This document shows positions 10,131 to 22,341 of a DNA stretch of 64,000 nt, piece after piece (the first letter of the stretch is position 1; every line of letters starts with the position of its first letter). The position numbers were made by a program, and so were the translations under genes. Origin of the DNA: Methylophaga thalassica MP (GTDB lineage: Bacteria > Pseudomonadota > Gammaproteobacteria > Nitrosococcales > Methylophagaceae); the NCBI RefSeq assembly GCF_000214595.1, contig NZ_AFIG01000001.1, forward strand, positions 1-64,000, given 5' to 3'. Below the pieces are notes generated by a model. The model searched no databases. It saw only the letters and a list, made by a program, of their open reading frames with translations, and was not told the origin of the DNA.

Positions 10131-10880
10131 TCAGCTATTCAGCTGAGCCATGACCTCATCAGAAAAGTCTGCGTTAGAATACACTTCCTGCACATCATCC
10201 AGATCTTCAAATGCTTCGATCATATTGATGGCTTTTTGGGCATCATCGACATCCAGACTGACGGTGGTATCAGGATGCATGGTTACCTGGGCTGATTCAG
10301 CTTCCAGCCCAGCAGCATCTAATGCATCTTTGACCGTTGAATAGTCTTCAGGCGAAGTAAACACATCAATAGATCCATCAGCATTAGTCACAATATCTTC
10401 AGCACCTGCTTCAAGTGCCACTTCCATCACCGCATCTTCATCAGTGCCACTAGCCAGTGAAATAATGCCTTTTTTGTTAAACAGAAAAGCGACGCAACCA
10501 TCCGTTCCCATATTGCCACCACGTTTGGTGAAAACATTACGCACAGCGGCAACAGTGCGGTTACGGTTATCAGTCATGCAGTCAACCATAATCGCCGTGC
10601 CATTTGGACCATAACCTTCATAGCGTATTTCTTCATAGTTAACGCCTTCCAGTTCACCGGCACCACGTTTCGTTGCACGCTCGATGACATCTTTTGTCAT
10701 GTTCGCGCCTAATGCTTTATCTATTGCAGCACGTAACCGTGGGTTAGAAGCTGGATCACTGCCGCCCATTTTGGCTGCAACAGTAATTTCACGAATCAGC
10801 TTAGTGAAGAGTTTGCCGCGCTTGGCATCCTGCGCACCTTTTCTATGCTGAATATTTGCCCACTTACTATGACCTGCCAT
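10131..10880 (-). CDS. yebC: YebC/PmpR family protein (TACO1-like)
   Basis: YebC-family protein linked in bacteria to transcriptional regulation and to relief of ribosome stalling at proline runs. The chosen start at 10880 gives 249 residues beginning [18 protein letters not shown], the universal family N-terminus. A 13-residue in-frame upstream extension has no such support. It stands immediately upstream of ruvC, a very common arrangement. Confidence 0.95.
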
Positions 10881-14929: not shown

Positions 14930-15328
14930 ATGGATTTTTTTAGACGTTTGAACAAAGTCATTCCGGTTTTATCAATCATGGCTTTTTTGAGTATCTACAT
15001 GGCACCTGTTCATGCAGCAATGATCGATAACCAACAACTTATTACTCAATCTCAAAGTGACATCACAAAACAAGAAGTGTTACAGCAACTTGACCGCCAG
15101 GAAGTCAAACAACAATTATTATCTATGGGCGTTGACCTGAATGATGCGAAAGCACGTATCAATCAAATGAGTGATCAGGAGCTGGCACAGTTAGCACAAA
15201 ACTTTGATGAAATGCCTGCAGGTAGTGGCATTATTGGAGCCATTCTCGTTGTATTTATCGTTTTAGTGATTACTGATATGCTGGGTGCAACCGACGTATT
15301 TGGATTTGTACATGATATTAATCACTAA
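14930..15328 (+). CDS. PA2779-family small membrane protein
   Basis: A 132-residue protein with a signal peptide or first membrane segment ending near PVHAA, a central amphipathic Gln-rich region with EVLQQLDRQEVKQQLLSMGVD, and a C-terminal hydrophobic helix (about 98-120: GSGIIGAILVVFIVLVITD). This matches the PA2779/DUF6627-type protein paired in Pseudomonas with a C39-like peptidase lipoprotein. The partner follows directly with a 17-base overlap. ATG 14930 has GAGGAG upstream. Molecular function is unknown. Confidence 0.8.
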   Translation: MDFFRRLNKVIPVLSIMAFLSIYMAPVHAAMIDNQQLITQSQSDITKQEVLQQLDRQEVKQQLLSMGVDLNDAKARINQMSDQELAQLAQNFDEMPAGSGIIGAILVVFIVLVITDMLGATDVFGFVHDINH

Positions 15329-16328
15329 ACAATCATTTTTTAGTGAATTCAAAAACGCCAGACTTTCTGGCGTTTTTTTTATTCTGCTTTTCTTATCTGC
15401 TTGTGCCAGTGCACCACAAACCAAAGATTTACTGAACTCACCGCCTGCTAACATTCCGCTACAACACGAACTCACAGAAACAGCCTTTTTTCCTCAGGAA
15501 GAATACCAATGTGGACCTGCAGCACTGGCGACCATATTAACGTCTGAAGGTATTGATGTAGTCCCTCAGGATTTAACAGCCAAAGTCTATCTGCCTGAGA
15601 AAAAAGGCAGTTTACAGGTAGAAATGATCGCAACGGCACGTAGCTATCAGCTCATGCCGTATAAACTTAGTCCTGATATCAAAGCCATCATTGAAGAAGT
15701 TAACTCGGGCAGACCTGTATTGGTTTTCCAAAATCTGGGCCTAACCTGGTATCCCGTATGGCATTACGCCGTCGTTATTGGTTATGAATTAGACAATCAA
15801 TTACTTATCTTGCGTTCAGGCACCGAAAAAAGACATCAGGTAAGTTTTCAAACCTTCGAACATACCTGGCAAAGAGGCCGCTACTGGGCCTATGTTTTCG
15901 TACAACCCAATGAAGTCCCTGTCACCGCCAATCTTCTTAGTTATACCCGTGCAGCTGATGCTCTAATGCAAGTAGGGCAAGATAAGAATGCCTTATTGGC
16001 ACATAAAACCGCCACACAGCAATGGCCAGATCAGACCTTATCACATATGGCTCTGGGTAATGCCGAGTTCAAAGCTGGACACTACAAGGAAGCTGGATTA
16101 GCTTTTGAGAATGCGATAAGAGTTGCCCCGGAAAACGCTCAGGCATGGAATAATTTGAGCTATGCATTAATGAAAAATAATTGCAGGTTTGCGGCGACTC
16201 GTGCCATCGTCTGCGCCACCAGAATAGCTCCTGACGATGATAATTTAAAAGACAGTCTGCAAGAAATTATCGGACAACGATCAATGCCTGGCGGTCAGTG
16301 TGAAATTCCAACGTGCCCTGAGTTTTAA
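15312..16328 (+). CDS. PA2778-like C39-family cysteine peptidase lipoprotein with TPR
   Basis: The start at ATG 15312 overlaps the preceding gene. The product is 338 residues. A lipoprotein signal peptide ends in the lipobox LSAC. A C39-like papain-fold domain follows with the catalytic Cys in EEYQCGPAALATIL and the His in WYPVWHYAVVIGYE. C-terminal TPR repeats (ALGNAEFKAGHYKEAGLAFENA) come last. Its substrate is unknown; it may process or guard the upstream small membrane protein. A perfect intrinsic terminator lies inside the signal-peptide codons. Confidence 0.85.
   Translation: MILITKQSFFSEFKNARLSGVFFILLFLSACASAPQTKDLLNSPPANIPLQHELTETAFFPQEEYQCGPAALATILTSEGIDVVPQDLTAKVYLPEKKGSLQVEMIATARSYQLMPYKLSPDIKAIIEEVNSGRPVLVFQNLGLTWYPVWHYAVVIGYELDNQLLILRSGTEKRHQVSFQTFEHTWQRGRYWAYVFVQPNEVPVTANLLSYTRAADALMQVGQDKNALLAHKTATQQWPDQTLSHMALGNAEFKAGHYKEAGLAFENAIRVAPENAQAWNNLSYALMKNNCRFAATRAIVCATRIAPDDDNLKDSLQEIIGQRSMPGGQCEIPTCPEF
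15351..15380 (+). terminator. Intrinsic terminator inside the signal-peptide coding region
   Basis: The stem 352-362 pairs with 366-376 (last three digits; AAAACGCCAGA with TCTGGCGTTTT) around a 3-base loop, followed by an eight-T run. It lies 23 bases past the stop of the upstream gene and about 40 bases inside the downstream gene. It would end most transcripts after the first gene unless translation or a protein prevents hairpin formation. Confidence 0.8.
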
Positions 16329-16338
16329 AGGATCAATC

Positions 16339-16761
16339 ATGTTAAGTCGTCTGTTCGTGGTGCTAACTTTATTCATTAGTTTCTCTGTTTTTGCTCATAC
16401 AGAAACTGACTGCGCATCAGCCTTTACCACATTGGAAATTAATGCATGTCTTAATGAAGAACTTCAGCAAAAACAAGACCTCATGAAACATTATCTGGCG
16501 GCGGCAAAGCAACGTTATCACGATGAAACTCAAGTCATAGAAGCCATTGAAACAGGGCAATCCGCCTGGGAGGCTTATAAAAACGCCCATTGTGACAGCA
16601 TTTACATCATTTGGATGGGCGGCACTATTCGTGGTGCCATGTCGCTTGGCTGTAAAATAAAGCTCACTCAGGTAAGAACCCATGAACTTTGGTCCAGCTA
16701 CCTGATCTTCCCGGACAGCACGCCGGCATTACTGCCAGAGCCAGAATTACCACTTGATTAA
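16339..16761 (+). CDS. LprI/DUF1311-family exported protein
   Basis: A 140-residue exported protein. ATG 16339 was chosen for the AAGGA site upstream and the following signal peptide (MLSRLFVVLTLF...FAHTETDC). The mature part has the DUF1311/LprI pattern: cysteines spaced across the domain, the NACLNEELQQKQD helix, QSAWEAYKNAHC and a C-terminal RTHEL motif. Some members inhibit lysozyme; the role here is not known. It is the third gene of the plus-strand cassette, 10 bases after the peptidase gene. Confidence 0.82.
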   Translation: MLSRLFVVLTLFISFSVFAHTETDCASAFTTLEINACLNEELQQKQDLMKHYLAAAKQRYHDETQVIEAIETGQSAWEAYKNAHCDSIYIIWMGGTIRGAMSLGCKIKLTQVRTHELWSSYLIFPDSTPALLPEPELPLD

Positions 16762-16763
16762 TA

Positions 16764-17078
16764 TCATTGCCCAATCATGATGAGCTTGCCCGTTTTCGGG
16801 TCGCGATAGACTTGGCCAACAGACTCGTATCCATCAGCGCCACCCTGCATTCCCTCCGGTATCTGCGGTAACTCTTTCATCGATTGTAATTCCGTCAAGG
16901 CATGATCCGCCTGATTTTTCTCTGACTGGAAATGGTCTTGTAACTGACTGCTCATTGAGATCAATGCCGCGATCAAGCCGCAGGCAAACACCAACATTAA
17001 GTCTAATAGATTGGCCATAGGGCCTAATGGTTCATCATCATTGCCATCAAAACGACTATTGCGCCAACGTCTAGCCAT
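16764..17078 (-). CDS. DUF2149-family membrane protein, ExbD/TolR-like helix
   Basis: The start at 17078 (MARRWRNSRFDG) gives 104 residues. There is one membrane helix at about 22-42 with sequence PMANLLDLMLVFACGLIAAL. Asp26 lies in the helix exactly like the essential Asp of TolR/ExbD (compare VVPYIDVMLVLL in this window's TolR). A short periplasmic tail with Gly/Tyr and a YRDPKTGKL motif follows. It overlaps the upstream ExbB-like gene by 8 bases. Family membership is recognised; its function as a channel partner is inferred from the Asp and the neighbours. Confidence 0.8.
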   Translation of the reverse strand: MARRWRNSRFDGNDDEPLGPMANLLDLMLVFACGLIAALISMSSQLQDHFQSEKNQADHALTELQSMKELPQIPEGMQGGADGYESVGQVYRDPKTGKLIMIGQ

Positions 17079-17517
17079 GAGCTTGTTCCATTGAGGACAA
17101 TACCTCCTCATACCAGCGTCGTCTTAACCGCCCTAAAACAAAACCGATAATGCCGACAAACAAACCCAACACCGTAGTATCAAATGCCACACTCATCGCG
17201 GTGGTTAAAATGCTTAATTCGCCATTACCCAAGGCTGATAAGCCGGGGCCAAGAGGAATCAGCGTTCCCATCAAACCGAGCATAGGCGCGATTCTGGCTA
17301 AAAAGTCACTTCGTTCGATTCGTTTAAACGCTAAGGTTTCAAACGCGTCAGTTTGGCCCGACTGTTGCCACTTCTTTAAACCAGAAAAACGCTCGGCTAG
17401 TGCAATACCTATATCTATAATGCTCAAGGCAGCAAACAGCATTAGTGCCCATATAACTGGTTCCAGTAAAAATCCCACTAAGTGATGCATCACACCTATC
17501 GACTGTGAACTCAACAT
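17071..17517 (-). CDS. MotA/TolQ/ExbB-family proton channel protein
   Basis: A short ExbB/TolQ-like protein of 148 residues. Membrane helices lie at about 15-38, 77-97 and 108-128. The typical motif IAPMLGLMGTLIPLGPGLSAL is followed by SVAFDTTVLGLFVGIIGFVLG. It is shorter than TolQ. The start is 3 bases after the cobN-like stop, with AAGGAG overlapping that stop, so translation is coupled. With the DUF2149 gene downstream it forms a putative proton-motive-force module for the CobN-like protein. Confidence 0.85.
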   Translation of the reverse strand: MLSSQSIGVMHHLVGFLLEPVIWALMLFAALSIIDIGIALAERFSGLKKWQQSGQTDAFETLAFKRIERSDFLARIAPMLGLMGTLIPLGPGLSALGNGELSILTTAMSVAFDTTVLGLFVGIIGFVLGRLRRRWYEEVLSSMEQAHG

Positions 17518-17520
17518 AAC

Positions 17521-20500
17521 TTACTCCTTAGCCTTTGAAGCAGGTGCACGCCCCCCTTTTGCAATACCGACCAGTACCAATAACATCACCAGACCTAATA
17601 TCACATACAGCCAGAAACGTTGTTGCTGGTTTTGTTCTAGCTGTTGTTCCTCAGATGAATTTGTTTGTTGTTGCTCAGCCTGAGTCGCTGTTTGTTCAGT
17701 GACCTCGGCAATATGGCTTGGTGCATTAGGCAAATCCGCTTCTGGCATTTTTGCTGCGTTTAACACCTCAGCTAATTGCTGCTGGTGATTTGCATCTAAA
17801 TAATCGTTTAACCAGACATACATCGGATGTGACGGCGTGGTATGACCACTTCCCGGCAGACCATTTGCTGCAACTAAATCGGTAAACTGCTGTGCCAGAT
17901 CTTGTAAGGTCGACTCATCTGCCTGCCAAAAGCCTTTATATGCTGCAACCAGCATAATCGCGAGCATATTGCTTTTCACATGCACATTGTGATCTTGTTC
18001 AAGGAACTCATCTAAGCCGAGATCCAGACCATCATCGACATACACGCGTTTGACTTCATCCCATACCCAGCTTTTCACAATACCGGGATTGGTTACCTGC
18101 CAGCCCCATAGATACTCTAAAAACTCACTGCCCATGGTGCGCGCGCCAGCATAACCTTCATTCATCAGAGGTTTCAGCCACTGAGGATTCAAGTAGCGGC
18201 CTCGTAATTCGCTCAACAACACACTTTGTAAGGGATCGACCCGTAAATCACTACTATCACTATGTGCCAGAATATAATTATTCGGTGCCTGACCACGGCT
18301 GGTCTCAATGGCTAAACTCAGTCCACCCAAATAATCAAAGGCATCATTGTTATCCATGACGCCATACAGATTACTGCCTCGCCCCAAATAGGTTTGGCCG
18401 ACATGTTTTAACCGCTGTTGAAACAGGGCCTGCTGTGCCTCGCCGTCCAGCTCTGCGCCATAAGCATGGCCCATGCGATGAATATACGTTTCCGCGACTT
18501 GTTCACGATTTTCCCAAGCACCTGAACGCTCCACCAAACGATTCACTCCCGCGCCATATGCGCCGGGAGGTGCGCCAAAAATACGGTAACTTGCTGTCAG
18601 CCCGGCTTCTTGTTGAGATATACCGGCTCGTAATGCCGCACTGGCATCAGCTACCCAACGAGCCGCCACTTGGTTCTGCTCTAAAGATTCAAACCCCGGC
18701 TTTTCTTTTATCTGCAAACGTTCCAAGGCGGCATCTAAAGATAATGTCAGCGCTGGATAATCACGGCGAATCAGCCCCGAAGAGGCATCTAAAGCCATTA
18801 AGACTGCTTGCTCCAACCACACTAACTGCGAACCATACAAATCACGAAATAAACCCGATGTGGTCAGTAACATATCCCGGCGGATACGCGGCGGATTTGA
18901 ACTAAAGTCTGCTGAGGTCAGCTCTAACCGCTCCAATCCGCTAAAAATCCCACGGCTATTCCAGGTCGGTTTCACACCTAACATATCGTAAGCAAAGGCA
19001 ATCATCGCACCTTCATCACGCACCACATCCGAGGCCCATAACACTAAAGCATCACTGTCCTGTTTAGCATTGGCTGGCGACTCAGCACGGGCTTTTTCTG
19101 CTAAAGCAATGCCAACTTTGTAGCCTAATCTGGATGGAATCAAGCTATCATCTAAGGCATAGAAATTACGCCCCGTAGGTAAAGCCGATGGTGTGCGAAT
19201 CGGATCATTGCCTTTACCGGGCTCGACAAAATGGCCATTCAGAGCAGCCAGTAAAGCCGACATTTCTGCCGCCGGAGATTTGCGTAACAGTGGCTCCCAA
19301 TTCTCCGTGGTTTGTTTGCCATTATTCATCGACGTCAGCATGGTTTGAATCGCTTTTTCAGACCAATCACGACCAAACACATGCAAACCTAACGGCATGA
19401 AATCTTCTTGCAGTGTGGTCAGGTAATGCCCGATTTCATGCACTAATAAATCATCATCTACCTGTTCAAATGAACTTAAGCCACGCACTTCCAATTCAGC
19501 TGACATATTGGCTGTCAGCTCATCTTCCAAATTCAACTCGGTAACCAAACGTTTCATTTCATCAATTGCACGGTCGCGCATTGCGCTGGCATTCACCGGT
19601 GCCGACTCATAACTTTCAACTACCTGACGAAGCGCCAATAATTGGTCATACAGTTCCGTGCTAGCCAGTGGCGGAGTAAGGTGATCAATCATTACAGCCA
19701 AACCACGGCGTTTCGCCTGAATGCCCTCGCCAACCCCGTCTACAATGTATGGATAAATACTGGGTAAATCAGCCAAAATCGCCTGCGGATAATCATTTTC
19801 CGCCATCCCCACACGATGTCGCGGTAGAAACTCGTAAGTGGAATGTCGGCCTAAATGCACTAAGGCATCGGCATGAAACTCATTTCTCAGCCATTGGTAA
19901 AAGGCCATATACTGATGTGGCGGTGGGAAGGATAAGTTCGCATGCAATAACTCCTCATTCAGCTCCCAGCCTCTTGGCGGTTGCGGTCCAACAAAAATAT
20001 TGCCAAATTGAATACCGGGAATCAGGATTTTATGGTCATATACCATTACATTACCCGGTGCTTCTCCCCAGCCTCGTACACCTTCAATCCACTGCTGACT
20101 AATCGCCGTAATTAATTGCTCAGCCTGCTGCCAATCCATCTCGTCTGAACGTTGCTGATAAAGGATCTGGAGCTGAGTGAGTAATTGCAAAACACGATCC
20201 CGACCAGCATGCTCTGCCCCATCCACCACATGGCGGATATCTTCCATCACTCTGGCTAATAAGTGTTTTGCAATACTGGGATCTTTTAACGCTTTCGCTT
20301 GTTTTAAATTGGCGTGCAATAAACCCAGCGGTCCATTGACCATTTCCTGCTGTAATGACTCCGGTAAGGTATGAAACCAGGACAGATAAGTTTGGCTATC
20401 AACAGTATTTACGACGGATGACATGGCGGCCAGTGCTTCATGATCTTCTGGCAGGTTCACACCACGCTGCTGTAATAAGTCTAATAACTCCGCTGATGTT

Positions 20501-21852
20501 TTTGGCAGTTCACCCGTGTTGTAGCCACTATTGTTGAGTGAATGCAAAATATCGAATAAAGACTCCACCACATTTAAATTATCCGCCCCGATATTGTGAC
20601 GGCCCGGCGGATGGTTGTAATAAATGATGGCGACTTTTTTATCCTGATTCGCTTTATTCTGCAATTGTTGCCAGCGTTTTAGACGCTGTGACAATAAGCT
20701 CACTTGTGAAGCAACTGGCTCAGAAAAAGCGAGTCTGGCACCGGTGAGCTTATCGACCTCAGCAGGTGTCATCGTCGCGACGACCATTGGTTGAGAAAGC
20801 CCCTGCAACTCAGGCATAGCGACCCGGTAATGCACCGAATCCCAGCTAATCCCGGCTTCAGACAGTTCCCACTCAGCACGGGTGCTGTCACTTAAACGCA
20901 TCGCTTTGATAACTGGCACATCCAGTTCTTTTAACTCATCGGTGACCGCTTGCCGATGTTCAGAGCCACCTATTACAAAGTCTTGTAATGATACTATCGA
21001 GCTGATCTGTGATTTATGTTCTGTCAGTAGCTTAATCGCAGATAAACTGGCATCCCCCCAGGCAGTAAGCACTGACACACACCCGGTCTTTTCATCAGCT
21101 ACGTTTTCGCAAACCGCATCCAGCAAAGCCTTTTCTCCGGGTCGTTCCCCGGTTTCATAATCGAGCAATACTACCCACGAAGATTTTGCTGAAAACTCAA
21201 ACTGCTCTGGTAAGGTGATTTTACCTTGATGATAAAGTCTGAGCTGTGCAGCTAATTGCGGACGCTGAATCGTATCTTCATGTCGAACGATATGATGCAG
21301 ATGATTAATTAAACCCTGCATATTTTCACTGTTTCTTCCTAACCAGAAGAAGCGCGTGATCAGCCAGGCTTGCTGTTCAGGATGTTGCTGTAATAGCGAT
21401 GCCATCCATTGTTCAGTTGATAAGCTGGGATCAGGATGTTGCATCAACTTATCAGGCGGCCCGGCTAATAATGCTTTGCCATCAAGACTTGAGGCCATCA
21501 CCAGACGTTGATCACTATGCAAAGCAATAAGATTGTTTAACAAACCTTTTTTGCTATATTCCACCAGTTGATTGGCGGTTTCGCCAAACACACCGCCAGC
21601 AAACACTAAATCTGACTGCTGCAATAACTGTGATTGCTTTTGTGTGGATAAATCTTGCCACTGCTCTGTTGTACGTATTTGTACAGAGACGGGCTGTTGC
21701 GATGTGTCTTTTAAAAATTCATGTGCACCTGATACCACTTCCGGTACATTCCTTGGCGTCACAATCAGTAAGAGTTGCTCAGCGAATGCTGATGCAGAGA
21801 AAAGAAACAGGACTAAACAGAGAACAATTCGGTTATACACAGCGCTTTCCAT
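17521..21852 (-). CDS. Periplasmic membrane-anchored CobN-like protein
   Basis: A very large (1443-residue) protein of the CobN/ChlH class, normally the large subunit of cobaltochelatase or magnesium chelatase. Unlike cytoplasmic CobN it begins with a signal peptide (ending FSASAFAEQ) and ends with a Gln-rich stretch, one hydrophobic helix (WLYVILGLVMLLVLVGIA) and a basic tail, so the bulk should be periplasmic. Family motifs include YYNHPPGRHNIGADNLNV, GNVMVYDHKILIPGIQFGN and HLGRHSTYEFLPRHRVG. No CobS/CobT ATPase partner is nearby. Start 21852 is chosen for the signal peptide; a GTG at 21897 is also open. A cobalamin riboswitch precedes it. Confidence 0.88.
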   Translation of the reverse strand: MESAVYNRIVLCLVLFLFSASAFAEQLLLIVTPRNVPEVVSGAHEFLKDTSQQPVSVQIRTTEQWQDLSTQKQSQLLQQSDLVFAGGVFGETANQLVEYSKKGLLNNLIALHSDQRLVMASSLDGKALLAGPPDKLMQHPDPSLSTEQWMASLLQQHPEQQAWLITRFFWLGRNSENMQGLINHLHHIVRHEDTIQRPQLAAQLRLYHQGKITLPEQFEFSAKSSWVVLLDYETGERPGEKALLDAVCENVADEKTGCVSVLTAWGDASLSAIKLLTEHKSQISSIVSLQDFVIGGSEHRQAVTDELKELDVPVIKAMRLSDSTRAEWELSEAGISWDSVHYRVAMPELQGLSQPMVVATMTPAEVDKLTGARLAFSEPVASQVSLLSQRLKRWQQLQNKANQDKKVAIIYYNHPPGRHNIGADNLNVVESLFDILHSLNNSGYNTGELPKTSAELLDLLQQRGVNLPEDHEALAAMSSVVNTVDSQTYLSWFHTLPESLQQEMVNGPLGLLHANLKQAKALKDPSIAKHLLARVMEDIRHVVDGAEHAGRDRVLQLLTQLQILYQQRSDEMDWQQAEQLITAISQQWIEGVRGWGEAPGNVMVYDHKILIPGIQFGNIFVGPQPPRGWELNEELLHANLSFPPPHQYMAFYQWLRNEFHADALVHLGRHSTYEFLPRHRVGMAENDYPQAILADLPSIYPYIVDGVGEGIQAKRRGLAVMIDHLTPPLASTELYDQLLALRQVVESYESAPVNASAMRDRAIDEMKRLVTELNLEDELTANMSAELEVRGLSSFEQVDDDLLVHEIGHYLTTLQEDFMPLGLHVFGRDWSEKAIQTMLTSMNNGKQTTENWEPLLRKSPAAEMSALLAALNGHFVEPGKGNDPIRTPSALPTGRNFYALDDSLIPSRLGYKVGIALAEKARAESPANAKQDSDALVLWASDVVRDEGAMIAFAYDMLGVKPTWNSRGIFSGLERLELTSADFSSNPPRIRRDMLLTTSGLFRDLYGSQLVWLEQAVLMALDASSGLIRRDYPALTLSLDAALERLQIKEKPGFESLEQNQVAARWVADASAALRAGISQQEAGLTASYRIFGAPPGAYGAGVNRLVERSGAWENREQVAETYIHRMGHAYGAELDGEAQQALFQQRLKHVGQTYLGRGSNLYGVMDNNDAFDYLGGLSLAIETSRGQAPNNYILAHSDSSDLRVDPLQSVLLSELRGRYLNPQWLKPLMNEGYAGARTMGSEFLEYLWGWQVTNPGIVKSWVWDEVKRVYVDDGLDLGLDEFLEQDHNVHVKSNMLAIMLVAAYKGFWQADESTLQDLAQQFTDLVAANGLPGSGHTTPSHPMYVWLNDYLDANHQQQLAEVLNAAKMPEADLPNAPSHIAEVTEQTATQAEQQQTNSSEEQQLEQNQQQRFWLYVILGLVMLLVLVGIAKGGRAPASKAKE

Positions 21853-21979
21853 CAATATATAAAAACACTGAGCTATCAAACCATGTCGGAAAACCACACA
21901 CCGCTTAACAACTCAAAGATGATTCGCCATTAAACGGTTTCCCGCTCCAACTGCACACCCCGGCCATCGGATAACAACG

Positions 21980-22155
21980 TTTTTATGGCAGATATCCTGG
22001 CTCACGCTTCATCACTCCCGACTCACCTTCCCGAAATCGACTAATTTCAGTGGTTTTACATCATCGTTGTCGGAAACTTCACGTATACAGTTGCGGGGAC
22101 AGCTTCGGTTAAGAATTCCCTTTTAACTCTGGTAAGAGACCATAAAGACCTGAAT
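21980..22155 (-). promoter_or_regulatory. Cobalamin riboswitch upstream of the cobN-like operon
   Basis: Read on the minus strand, the leader holds conserved cobalamin-riboswitch elements in order: a GGGAA box, GCTGTCCCCGCAACTGT, a CACTGAAATT/GGGAAGG segment, and near the 3' end GAGCCAGGATATCTGCC. Class is clear by motif, exact ends are estimated. It lies about 130 bases upstream of the cobN-like start, so this operon should be shut off when B12 is plentiful. Confidence 0.9.
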
Positions 22156-22159
22156 TATA
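22154..22159 (-). promoter_or_regulatory. -10 element of the riboswitch transcript
   Basis: A perfect TATAAT on the minus strand just upstream of the riboswitch 5' end. No good -35 match was found at the expected distance, so the promoter is only partly supported. Confidence 0.5.
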
Positions 22160-22341
22160 CGTACATCGCTTAATAACAACCACGGTTTGGTGACGCATAC
22201 AAAATCGCACACAATATTCATGCGCCAACTAAAGCTAGACAGTCAAAATAGCGATGGCTAATATCCCACAGAGACGCCATGTTTAATCGAGTGGCTCTGC
22301 TCCCTAATTTTCAGCGAAAAAATAACAAGAGGAATAAAAGG

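Follow-up and report, generated by a model that had tools for sequence, protein, structure and literature searches.

The window analysed here comprises 64,000 nucleotides of Methylophaga thalassica MP, and all coordinates of the locus refer to it. On its minus strand, a cobalamin riboswitch is followed by three near-touching or overlapping genes, which encode—in this order—a CobN-like protein, an ExbB/TolQ-like protein and a DUF2149 protein (Table 1); residues of the CobN-like protein are counted from the ATG at 21852. The riboswitch, the gene unit, the export signals, the conserved catalytic residues, the position in a separate clade and the company of B12 genes lend sequence-based support to a reading of this operon as a proton-driven machine that inserts cobalt into corrinoids, or exchanges their metal, in the periplasm. 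This reading is tentative—we rate it as somewhat less than probable—and proton coupling, substrate, metal and direction are what we infer within it.

Table 1. Features of the riboswitch-led operon in the window
Feature	Position	Strand	Evidence
Cobalamin riboswitch aptamer RF00174	21970..22159	-	cmscan 94.3 bits (gathering score 31.5), full model 1-189
CobN-like exported class I chelatase subunit (predicted), 1443 aa	17521..21852	-	PF02514 824.9 bits, 3 stretches covering most of the model
Signal peptide, residues 1-24, cleavage read after AFA	21781..21852	-	sequence and hydropathy
CobN-like protein, C-terminal membrane helix plus short basic tail	17524..17608	-	hydropathy peak 2.95, last 80 residues
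ExbB/TolQ/MotA-family protein, 148 aa	17071..17517	-	PF01618 44.2 bits (cut-off 22.9); 11-sequence alignment
DUF2149 protein, 115 aa, single helix with Asp37	16764..17111	-	PF09919 41.7 bits; low-confidence model

The gene unit and its partner proteins

The riboswitch lies ~118 bases upstream of the CobN-like ATG on the same strand, in agreement with a preliminary description of this DNA, which had read a cobalamin riboswitch ahead of the operon from the letters alone. It is kept in two close Methylophaga relatives (L136, L137) and partly in a more distant one (L140). A GTG at 21897 offers an alternative start of the CobN-like gene, with an open reading frame (ORF) of 17521–21897 and 1458 aa, that is, 15 more residues. 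The ATG at 21852 is absent from the more distant relative; since it is kept in the two close relatives while the bases preceding it carry insertions and deletions, it is the likelier start. The DUF2149 ORF overlaps the end of exbB, and an internal, later start is possible.

Among 369 genomes of the class, the DUF2149 family PF09919 matches 21—20 of them over cut-off—and PF02514 is present in 41. All 20 over-cut-off genomes carry PF02514 (hypergeometric 5e-22, uncorrected for relatedness). Outside the host, 19 of 20 PF09919 loci bear a CobN-like and an ExbB-like gene, the exception being the sub-cut-off match. These 19 loci split in two: 11 are of the window type (L037–L047, one a 3.5 kb fragment) and are called B12-type in the following; eight (L029–L036) are Hmu/Zur-like, a label coined here from their resemblance to hmu and the Zur operon. 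An Rfam riboswitch was found at eight of the 10 full-length B12-type loci versus none of the eight Hmu/Zur-type loci, and not at L037, L038 or the B12-type fragment.

When genome contigs were scanned using the alignment of B12-type proteins, 280 relatives emerged, and the following counts refer to the best 80 of these 280. Their taxa are Gammaproteobacteria (Methylophaga, Pseudomonas, Azotobacter, Colwellia and others), Betaproteobacteria, Nitrospirota, Nitrospinota, Myxococcota and Campylobacterota. An ExbB-like gene is present at 80/80 loci and DUF2149 at 79/80, where the remaining contig ends. A same-strand cobalamin riboswitch, detected with a sequence profile built from 14 Rfam matches, lies upstream at 59 loci, for 36 of which the distance to the CobN-like ORF is at most 500 bases; 11 of the 21 loci lacking a match have <4 kb of upstream sequence and 10 have at least 8 kb. 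By best-hit counts, the neighbours are BtuB-like (35), CobO (25), CobB (22), BtuF-like (17), CobQ (12), BtuM (11) and BtuC-like (10), with btuM-cobB-cobN-exbB-DUF2149-cobO and btuB-cobN-exbB-DUF2149 as recurring orders. The CobN-like/ExbB/DUF2149 triple is a unit, widespread among B12-scavenging bacteria, and the co-occurrence on which the preliminary description had made its proposal depend—with the two partners as well as with cobalamin riboswitches—is found in both surveys.

A Marinobacter sp. M3C plasmid (L240, NZ_CP092285.1, 6983–11185) shows that the triple is not universal. Its B12-type gene sits in a riboswitch-led btuB-btuF-btuC-btuD-cobB-cobN-cobO cluster and encodes a signal peptide, and ExbB, DUF2149 and the C-terminal helix are absent within 18 kb. 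As one deletion could remove all three, this is not an independent co-loss. Two further loci show additional elements: at L038, a thiamine pyrophosphate riboswitch (10347–10477) immediately precedes the gene of a TonB-dependent receptor, which follows closely downstream of the triple, and at L044 a tetrapyrrole methylase gene (PF00590, 9118–9789) lies between exbB and DUF2149 in a genome where CbiC was not found. A CobW-type GTPase is nearby at 5/20 unlinked versus 2/90 B12-type loci—those two being the same sequence—which is a weak difference given unequal stretch lengths and a single query.

Both partners had been named in the preliminary description, and both match their family models (Table 1). 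The ExbB-like protein belongs to the ExbB family by a PF01618 score over cut-off and by the conserved region of transmembrane helices 2 and 3 in an alignment of 11 sequences. For the DUF2149 protein, the Asp that had been noted at the position of its TolR/ExbD counterpart is borne out as Asp37 in 58/58 aligned rows, within a helix whose NxxDxMLV resembles PFIDVMLV of ExbD. Against an ExbD/TolR profile, the match covers 16 helix columns only, at 4.9% probability, and homology over helix plus periplasmic domain was not found. The low-confidence model of this protein (predicted local distance difference test, pLDDT, 66; predicted template modelling score, pTM, 0.27) has a long helix, a short helix and a hairpin, and no ExbD-like periplasmic domain. 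The pair hence resembles the ExbB/ExbD and TolQ/TolR energisers in its ExbB family match and the Asp in a membrane helix, but differs in the domain missing from the model; to regard DUF2149 as a 'minimal ExbD-like' protein is a working idea.

Such a pair could energise TonB-dependent uptake through BtuB, as drawn for HmuU/HmuV in PMC12583661 and PMC10100974, while the CobN-like protein works without it. We consider this quite improbable. The pair stays with the CobN-like gene at 79 of the 80 loci, whereas a BtuB-like gene does so at only 35, and the btuB of the host is located away from the window triple. On plasmid pGLOV01 of Trichlorobacter lovleyi (L241, NC_010815.1, 2528–13937), the record annotation gives a TonB receptor, DUF2162, ExbB, DUF2149 and CobN, then ExbB, ExbD, TonB and another receptor—both energiser sets side by side. 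A link of DUF2149 to TolQ is also given for methanogens (PMC9425974). Methanogens lack an outer membrane. Because of this separate ExbB-ExbD-TonB set and the methanogen link, it is unlikely that the ExbB/DUF2149 pair serves TonB.

Export, family and active site of the CobN-like protein

From the ATG, the N-terminus of the CobN-like protein, MESAVYNRIVLCLVLFLFSASAFA followed after the cleavage site by EQ, reads as a Sec signal peptide by hydropathy and by eye, and the C-terminus holds a single, strongly hydrophobic helix, in the region of which Gly1429 and Gly1433 are invariant among 11 sequences. Signal peptide and C-terminal helix occur jointly in 17/17 full-length DUF2149-linked proteins—the window protein included, the fragments L031, L032 and L041 omitted—versus 0/20 unlinked PF02514 proteins. 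The C-terminal hydropathy peak separates the two groups, with 1.60 to 2.95 for the linked and at most 0.99 for the unlinked proteins; the N-terminal peak alone does not, and signal peptides were judged by eye from peak and sequence together. The two export features accompany the ExbB/DUF2149 linkage, which corroborates the export claimed from the window alone.

Public records label such genes as cobaltochelatase subunit CobN, which speaks for an ordinary cytoplasmic CobN left in a broken or incomplete B12 pathway. The chance of this is next to negligible: none of the NCBIfam CobN/ChlH models reaches its cut-off on this protein (652 of 1619 bits at best; 505 of 822 bits for a second curated CobN equivalog), the protein bears a signal peptide and an anchor, and it falls into a separate clade. 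In a tree of 55 proteins—made by a quick method with support from the Shimodaira–Hasegawa-like approximate likelihood ratio test (SH-aLRT) only and carrying a long-branch warning—29 B12-type, 14 CobN, six ChlH and six Hmu/Zur-type proteins are each set off by a branch with support 100, and the two exported types group together with 98 SH-aLRT. By these sequences, the B12-type proteins form a clade of their own, distinct from CobN, from ChlH and from the exported chelatases of Hmu/Zur type.

The closest solved chain is HmuS (387 bits), followed by ChlH (339) and CobN (331). HmuS is the exported heme de-chelatase of the Bacteroidota hmu operon (PMC12583661), whose gene order is given in PMC10434189, and a parallel to it had been drawn in the preliminary description. 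In architecture this parallel stands: like HmuS with HmuT, HmuU and HmuV, the window system is predicted to combine an exported, anchored member of the CobN/ChlH superfamily with ExbB-like and DUF2149 partners, and the catalytic His and Glu are kept (PMC12583661; PMC10434189). It does not extend to the tested features that define HmuS. The described G(T/A)HG motif, conserved throughout the superfamily (PMC12583661), is found as G[TKA]HG in 26/26 comparison proteins, whereas all 91 B12-type proteins (89 distinct) have GRHST; the window protein reads HLGRHST where HmuS has HFG(T/A)HG. HmuS His-1209 and Glu-1212 correspond to Asp1170 and Asp1173, and the second active-site loop, LSLDHxxEFMGG in HmuS, is read from the alignment as MDNNDAFDYLGG in the window protein with Asp1170 at the His position. 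For the heme ligands, the alignment is weak around His-254, which it pairs with Glu298, and it does not reach Met-79. The Met-rich insertion is missing, with 67 residues versus 273 in HmuS between the same aligned blocks and 7 Met in 148 residues. Furthermore, the window has a B12 riboswitch and B12 genes where hmu has HmuY/HmuR and iron control, and HmuT is not part of the window triple.

Other parts of the active site are shared with CobN. GEGxQAK is present in 89/91 B12-type and 14/14 CobN proteins, PGxYGAG in 83/91 and 12/14, and both in 0/12 Hmu/Zur-type and ChlH proteins; besides these and the superfamily fold by sequence, CobN of the CobNST system has the Asp in the second active-site loop in common with the window protein. 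CobN differs in having neither signal peptide nor anchor, in using CobS/CobT or ChlI/ChlD in place of ExbB/DUF2149 and in its clade. The catalytic His is kept as His670 (HmuS His-538), while Glu709 corresponds to HmuS Glu-577 and ChlH Glu660, and Glu674 to ChlH Glu625; His670, Glu674 and Glu709 are invariant in 11/11 aligned proteins. With a topology like that of HmuS and active-site parts like those of CobN, the window protein is, by the tests made, a member of neither. A low-confidence model of residues 190–1360 (pLDDT 62, pTM 0.50, nine sequences) ranks HmuS, CobN and ChlH first in Foldseek at template modelling scores of only ~0.3, and no conclusion rests on its geometry. No relative of the protein was found in a scan of viral contigs.

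Two further systems are comparable. BtuS, named after Rodionov 2003, is a third CobN type (PMC6460266), which in Bacteroides fragilis is exported and anchored and suggested to serve metalloporphyrin salvage; in the same species, hmu-like operons are preceded by a cobalamin riboswitch (PMC10100974). In B. fragilis, though, the association of these proteins is with heme iron. Pseudomonas aeruginosa PA1922-PA1925—a TonB receptor, a CobN-like, an ExbB/D-like and a DUF2149 protein—holds the same three-gene core beside a receptor (PMC4542158, PMC8456098, PMC9431628), but belongs to the zinc-controlled Zur regulon; this comparison is by gene set. Exported CobN-like/ExbB/DUF2149 sets are hence already known from hmu, BtuS and the Zur operon, from which the B12-type differs as a new variant. 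Among open-licence papers, no title or opening of an abstract describing a B12-type proteobacterial system was found, and PMC13227078 leaves the part played by HmuT, HmuU and HmuV open.

As the nearest solved relative is an exported de-chelatase (PMC12583661) and the exported types group together, the window protein might likewise strip cobalt or another metal from periplasmic corrinoids or porphyrins—for metal supply or for clearing wrong corrinoids. This seems improbable to us, as the His-1209, loop motif and Met-rich insertion specific to HmuS are absent and Glu298 may, by a weak alignment, replace His-254. It is hard to see why corrinoids should be stripped during B12 shortage, and cells that do not make the ring have no need of cobalt for B12. 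Cobalt also sits very tightly in corrins.

Corrinoid salvage and ring synthesis around the operon

The host genome (3.26 Mb, 100% complete) encodes a single PF02514 protein, whose nearest named relatives are from Methylophaga at 87–88% identity. It has three cobalamin riboswitches: the one in the window and a divergent pair at C3:883198-883684, which flanks a gene read as btuB and a btuM-like gene. The product of the latter matches the solved chain 8c7p with 133.7 bits, with the cysteine of FC.SPAY aligned; BtuM is described in PMC6072759. Behind this gene we read cobB, bluB, cbiB, cobD, cobQ, cobU, cobT, cobS and cobO, among which CobB was checked by a family model and the others were read from their sequences. 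The corrin-ring marker CbiC/CobH was not found in the genome. Judged by this missing marker and the salvage genes, the host looks like a corrinoid salvager. The preliminary description had also noted that CobT is not nearby, and this holds for the family PF06213: none is near the window genes, and the sole host match (34.5 bits) lies on a different contig, C2, with no search made for CobS. This CobT-like VWA protein (L086, G000:C2:131740-132522) and the one of genome G089 (L085) each stand behind an ORF of ~340 residues, remote from the B12 genes by distance or by lying on a contig without them, and look mobile-element-like rather than like a chelatase subunit.

The handling of corrinoids, as claimed earlier, is strengthened by the adjoining B12 salvage genes and the motifs in common with CobN, while the substrate itself is something that we infer. 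The idea that the module generally stands in for a B12 importer was rejected, since BtuM is present in 2/12 B12-type genomes (38/369 overall) and several others have Btu-type ABC genes in the cluster itself. Among the matches listed for the CobB model, 9/12 B12-type genomes are represented and G143, G256 and G202 are not. As a sign of metal-free corrinoid salvage, CobB is non-discriminating, as similar scores are found in genomes without module and without CbiC (e.g., G036, G174); many of the stronger matches (380–453 bits) presumably belong to another family of DsrN type.

The salvage setting, together with the riboswitch in genomes without CbiC, also fits a non-catalytic corrinoid carrier. 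Here, the chelatase fold would be a periplasmic binding platform, and the proton pair would drive loading or release, so that corrinoids travel onwards from BtuB to BtuM or BtuCDF and perhaps lose an axial ligand on the way. The replacement of Gly by Ser next to the catalytic His is in line with this, as are the BtuM or Btu-type ABC importer genes in the same cluster at several loci. Opposed to it are the invariant His670, Glu674 and Glu709, and a carrier would leave three ring-making genomes without a cobaltochelatase. BtuF is not known to need such a motor for its work. We regard the carrier as unlikely, yet as a serious alternative.

The three ring-making genomes—G089, G236 and G121, the only ones among 12 B12-type genomes with CbiC—bear most directly on a chelatase function. 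CobG, which marks the oxygen-dependent route with late cobalt insertion, scores over its cut-off (234.8) in G236 (323 bits) and G089 (247 bits), and the G121 match is 65% identical to the G236 protein. Late cobalt insertion is also described in PMC7689651. The B12-type protein carries a signal peptide in all three. Since no other PF02514, CbiX or CbiK was found there, it is the only late cobaltochelatase candidate detected by sequence (CobS, ChlI and ChlD were not searched); for PF06213, only the VWA protein in G089 was found, which is read as unrelated. Overall, the 41 CbiC genomes include 15 with an unlinked PF02514 protein, three with the B12-type and one with the Hmu/Zur type, and none was seen with two kinds. 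By motif, 12 of the 15 unlinked genomes have CobN and G106 has ChlH only; G191 and G195 are unclassified. Inside the corrin operons of the three genomes (L039, L042, L045), genes for an ABC-2 type ATPase and permease lie next to cobG, versus an ABC-2 permease in 0/13 stretches, some of them short, around CbiC of other genomes (12 with CobN, one with ChlH only). As G089, G236 and G121 are related, this pair is only suggestive of an exporter link.

A proposed periplasmic reaction on corrinoids

In the preferred reading—the proton-driven periplasmic cobaltochelatase or metal-exchange machine—the B12-controlled operon would yield an exported, inner-membrane-anchored catalytic subunit of a class I chelatase, which acts on periplasmic corrinoids. 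Its C-terminal helix would couple to ExbB/DUF2149 as a proton-channel pair, and this pair would replace the ATP-driven CobS/CobT or ChlI/ChlD motors, known from cytoplasmic CobN and ChlH, in cycling the conformations of the catalytic subunit. The likeliest reaction would be cobalt insertion, or re-insertion and exchange, in metal-free or wrongly metallated corrinoids. It would take place between outer-membrane uptake by BtuB and inner-membrane uptake by BtuM/BtuCDF, before salvage enzymes complete the cofactor. A narrower claim, in which the enzyme is strictly a cobaltochelatase, active outside the cytoplasm and drawing its energy from the proton motive force rather than from ATP, is more doubtful. 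Under this claim, salvagers such as the host could use metal-free or wrongly metallated corrinoids; in ring-makers, the corrin would be exported by the ABC-2 exporter of the corrin operon, receive cobalt in the periplasm and be taken up again by Btu-type transporters.

Several points weigh against this preferred reading. All 91 B12-type proteins have Ser in place of the Gly that otherwise invariably follows the catalytic His, and catalysis could be altered or lost as a result. HmuS, the closest relative with a structure, removes metal, and the B12-type clade lies with the Hmu/Zur type and not with CobN—at the support and with the long-branch warning given above. Nine of the 12 B12-type genomes, including the host, have no corrin of their own to metallate because CbiC was not found in them (G333 is only 82% complete), and metal-free corrinoids as a natural food source are an assumption. 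At L037 and L038, whose proteins are closely related to that of the window, a riboswitch is missing, and their genomes have no CobB match among those listed. CbiD, named in NCBIfam for the route with early cobalt insertion, is also present in the three ring-making genomes, so that these may follow a mixed route in which a different enzyme, such as CysG, inserts the metal early. Finally, a substrate made in the cytoplasm would need export for periplasmic metallation.

If the preferred reading is true, class I chelatases would have a second energy source, and one metal-insertion step of B12 metabolism would move to the periplasm. This would explain CobN annotations in bacteria without corrin-ring genes, and would provide a single mechanism for the operons with a CobN-like/ExbB/DUF2149 core, whether they serve iron (hmu), zinc (Zur operon) or B12. 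Also, the role of the proton pair would become directly testable.

Two minor observations concern the surroundings of the B12 genes in the host. On the plus strand of the window (14930–16761), a small exported protein, a lipoprotein-like peptidase/TPR protein and a second small exported protein are read from the sequence, and these genes converge on the DUF2149 gene. Elsewhere in the host genome (L007, 18988–19600), a long simple repeat of serine-glutamine/glycine-serine type lies downstream of btuB and metB-like genes.

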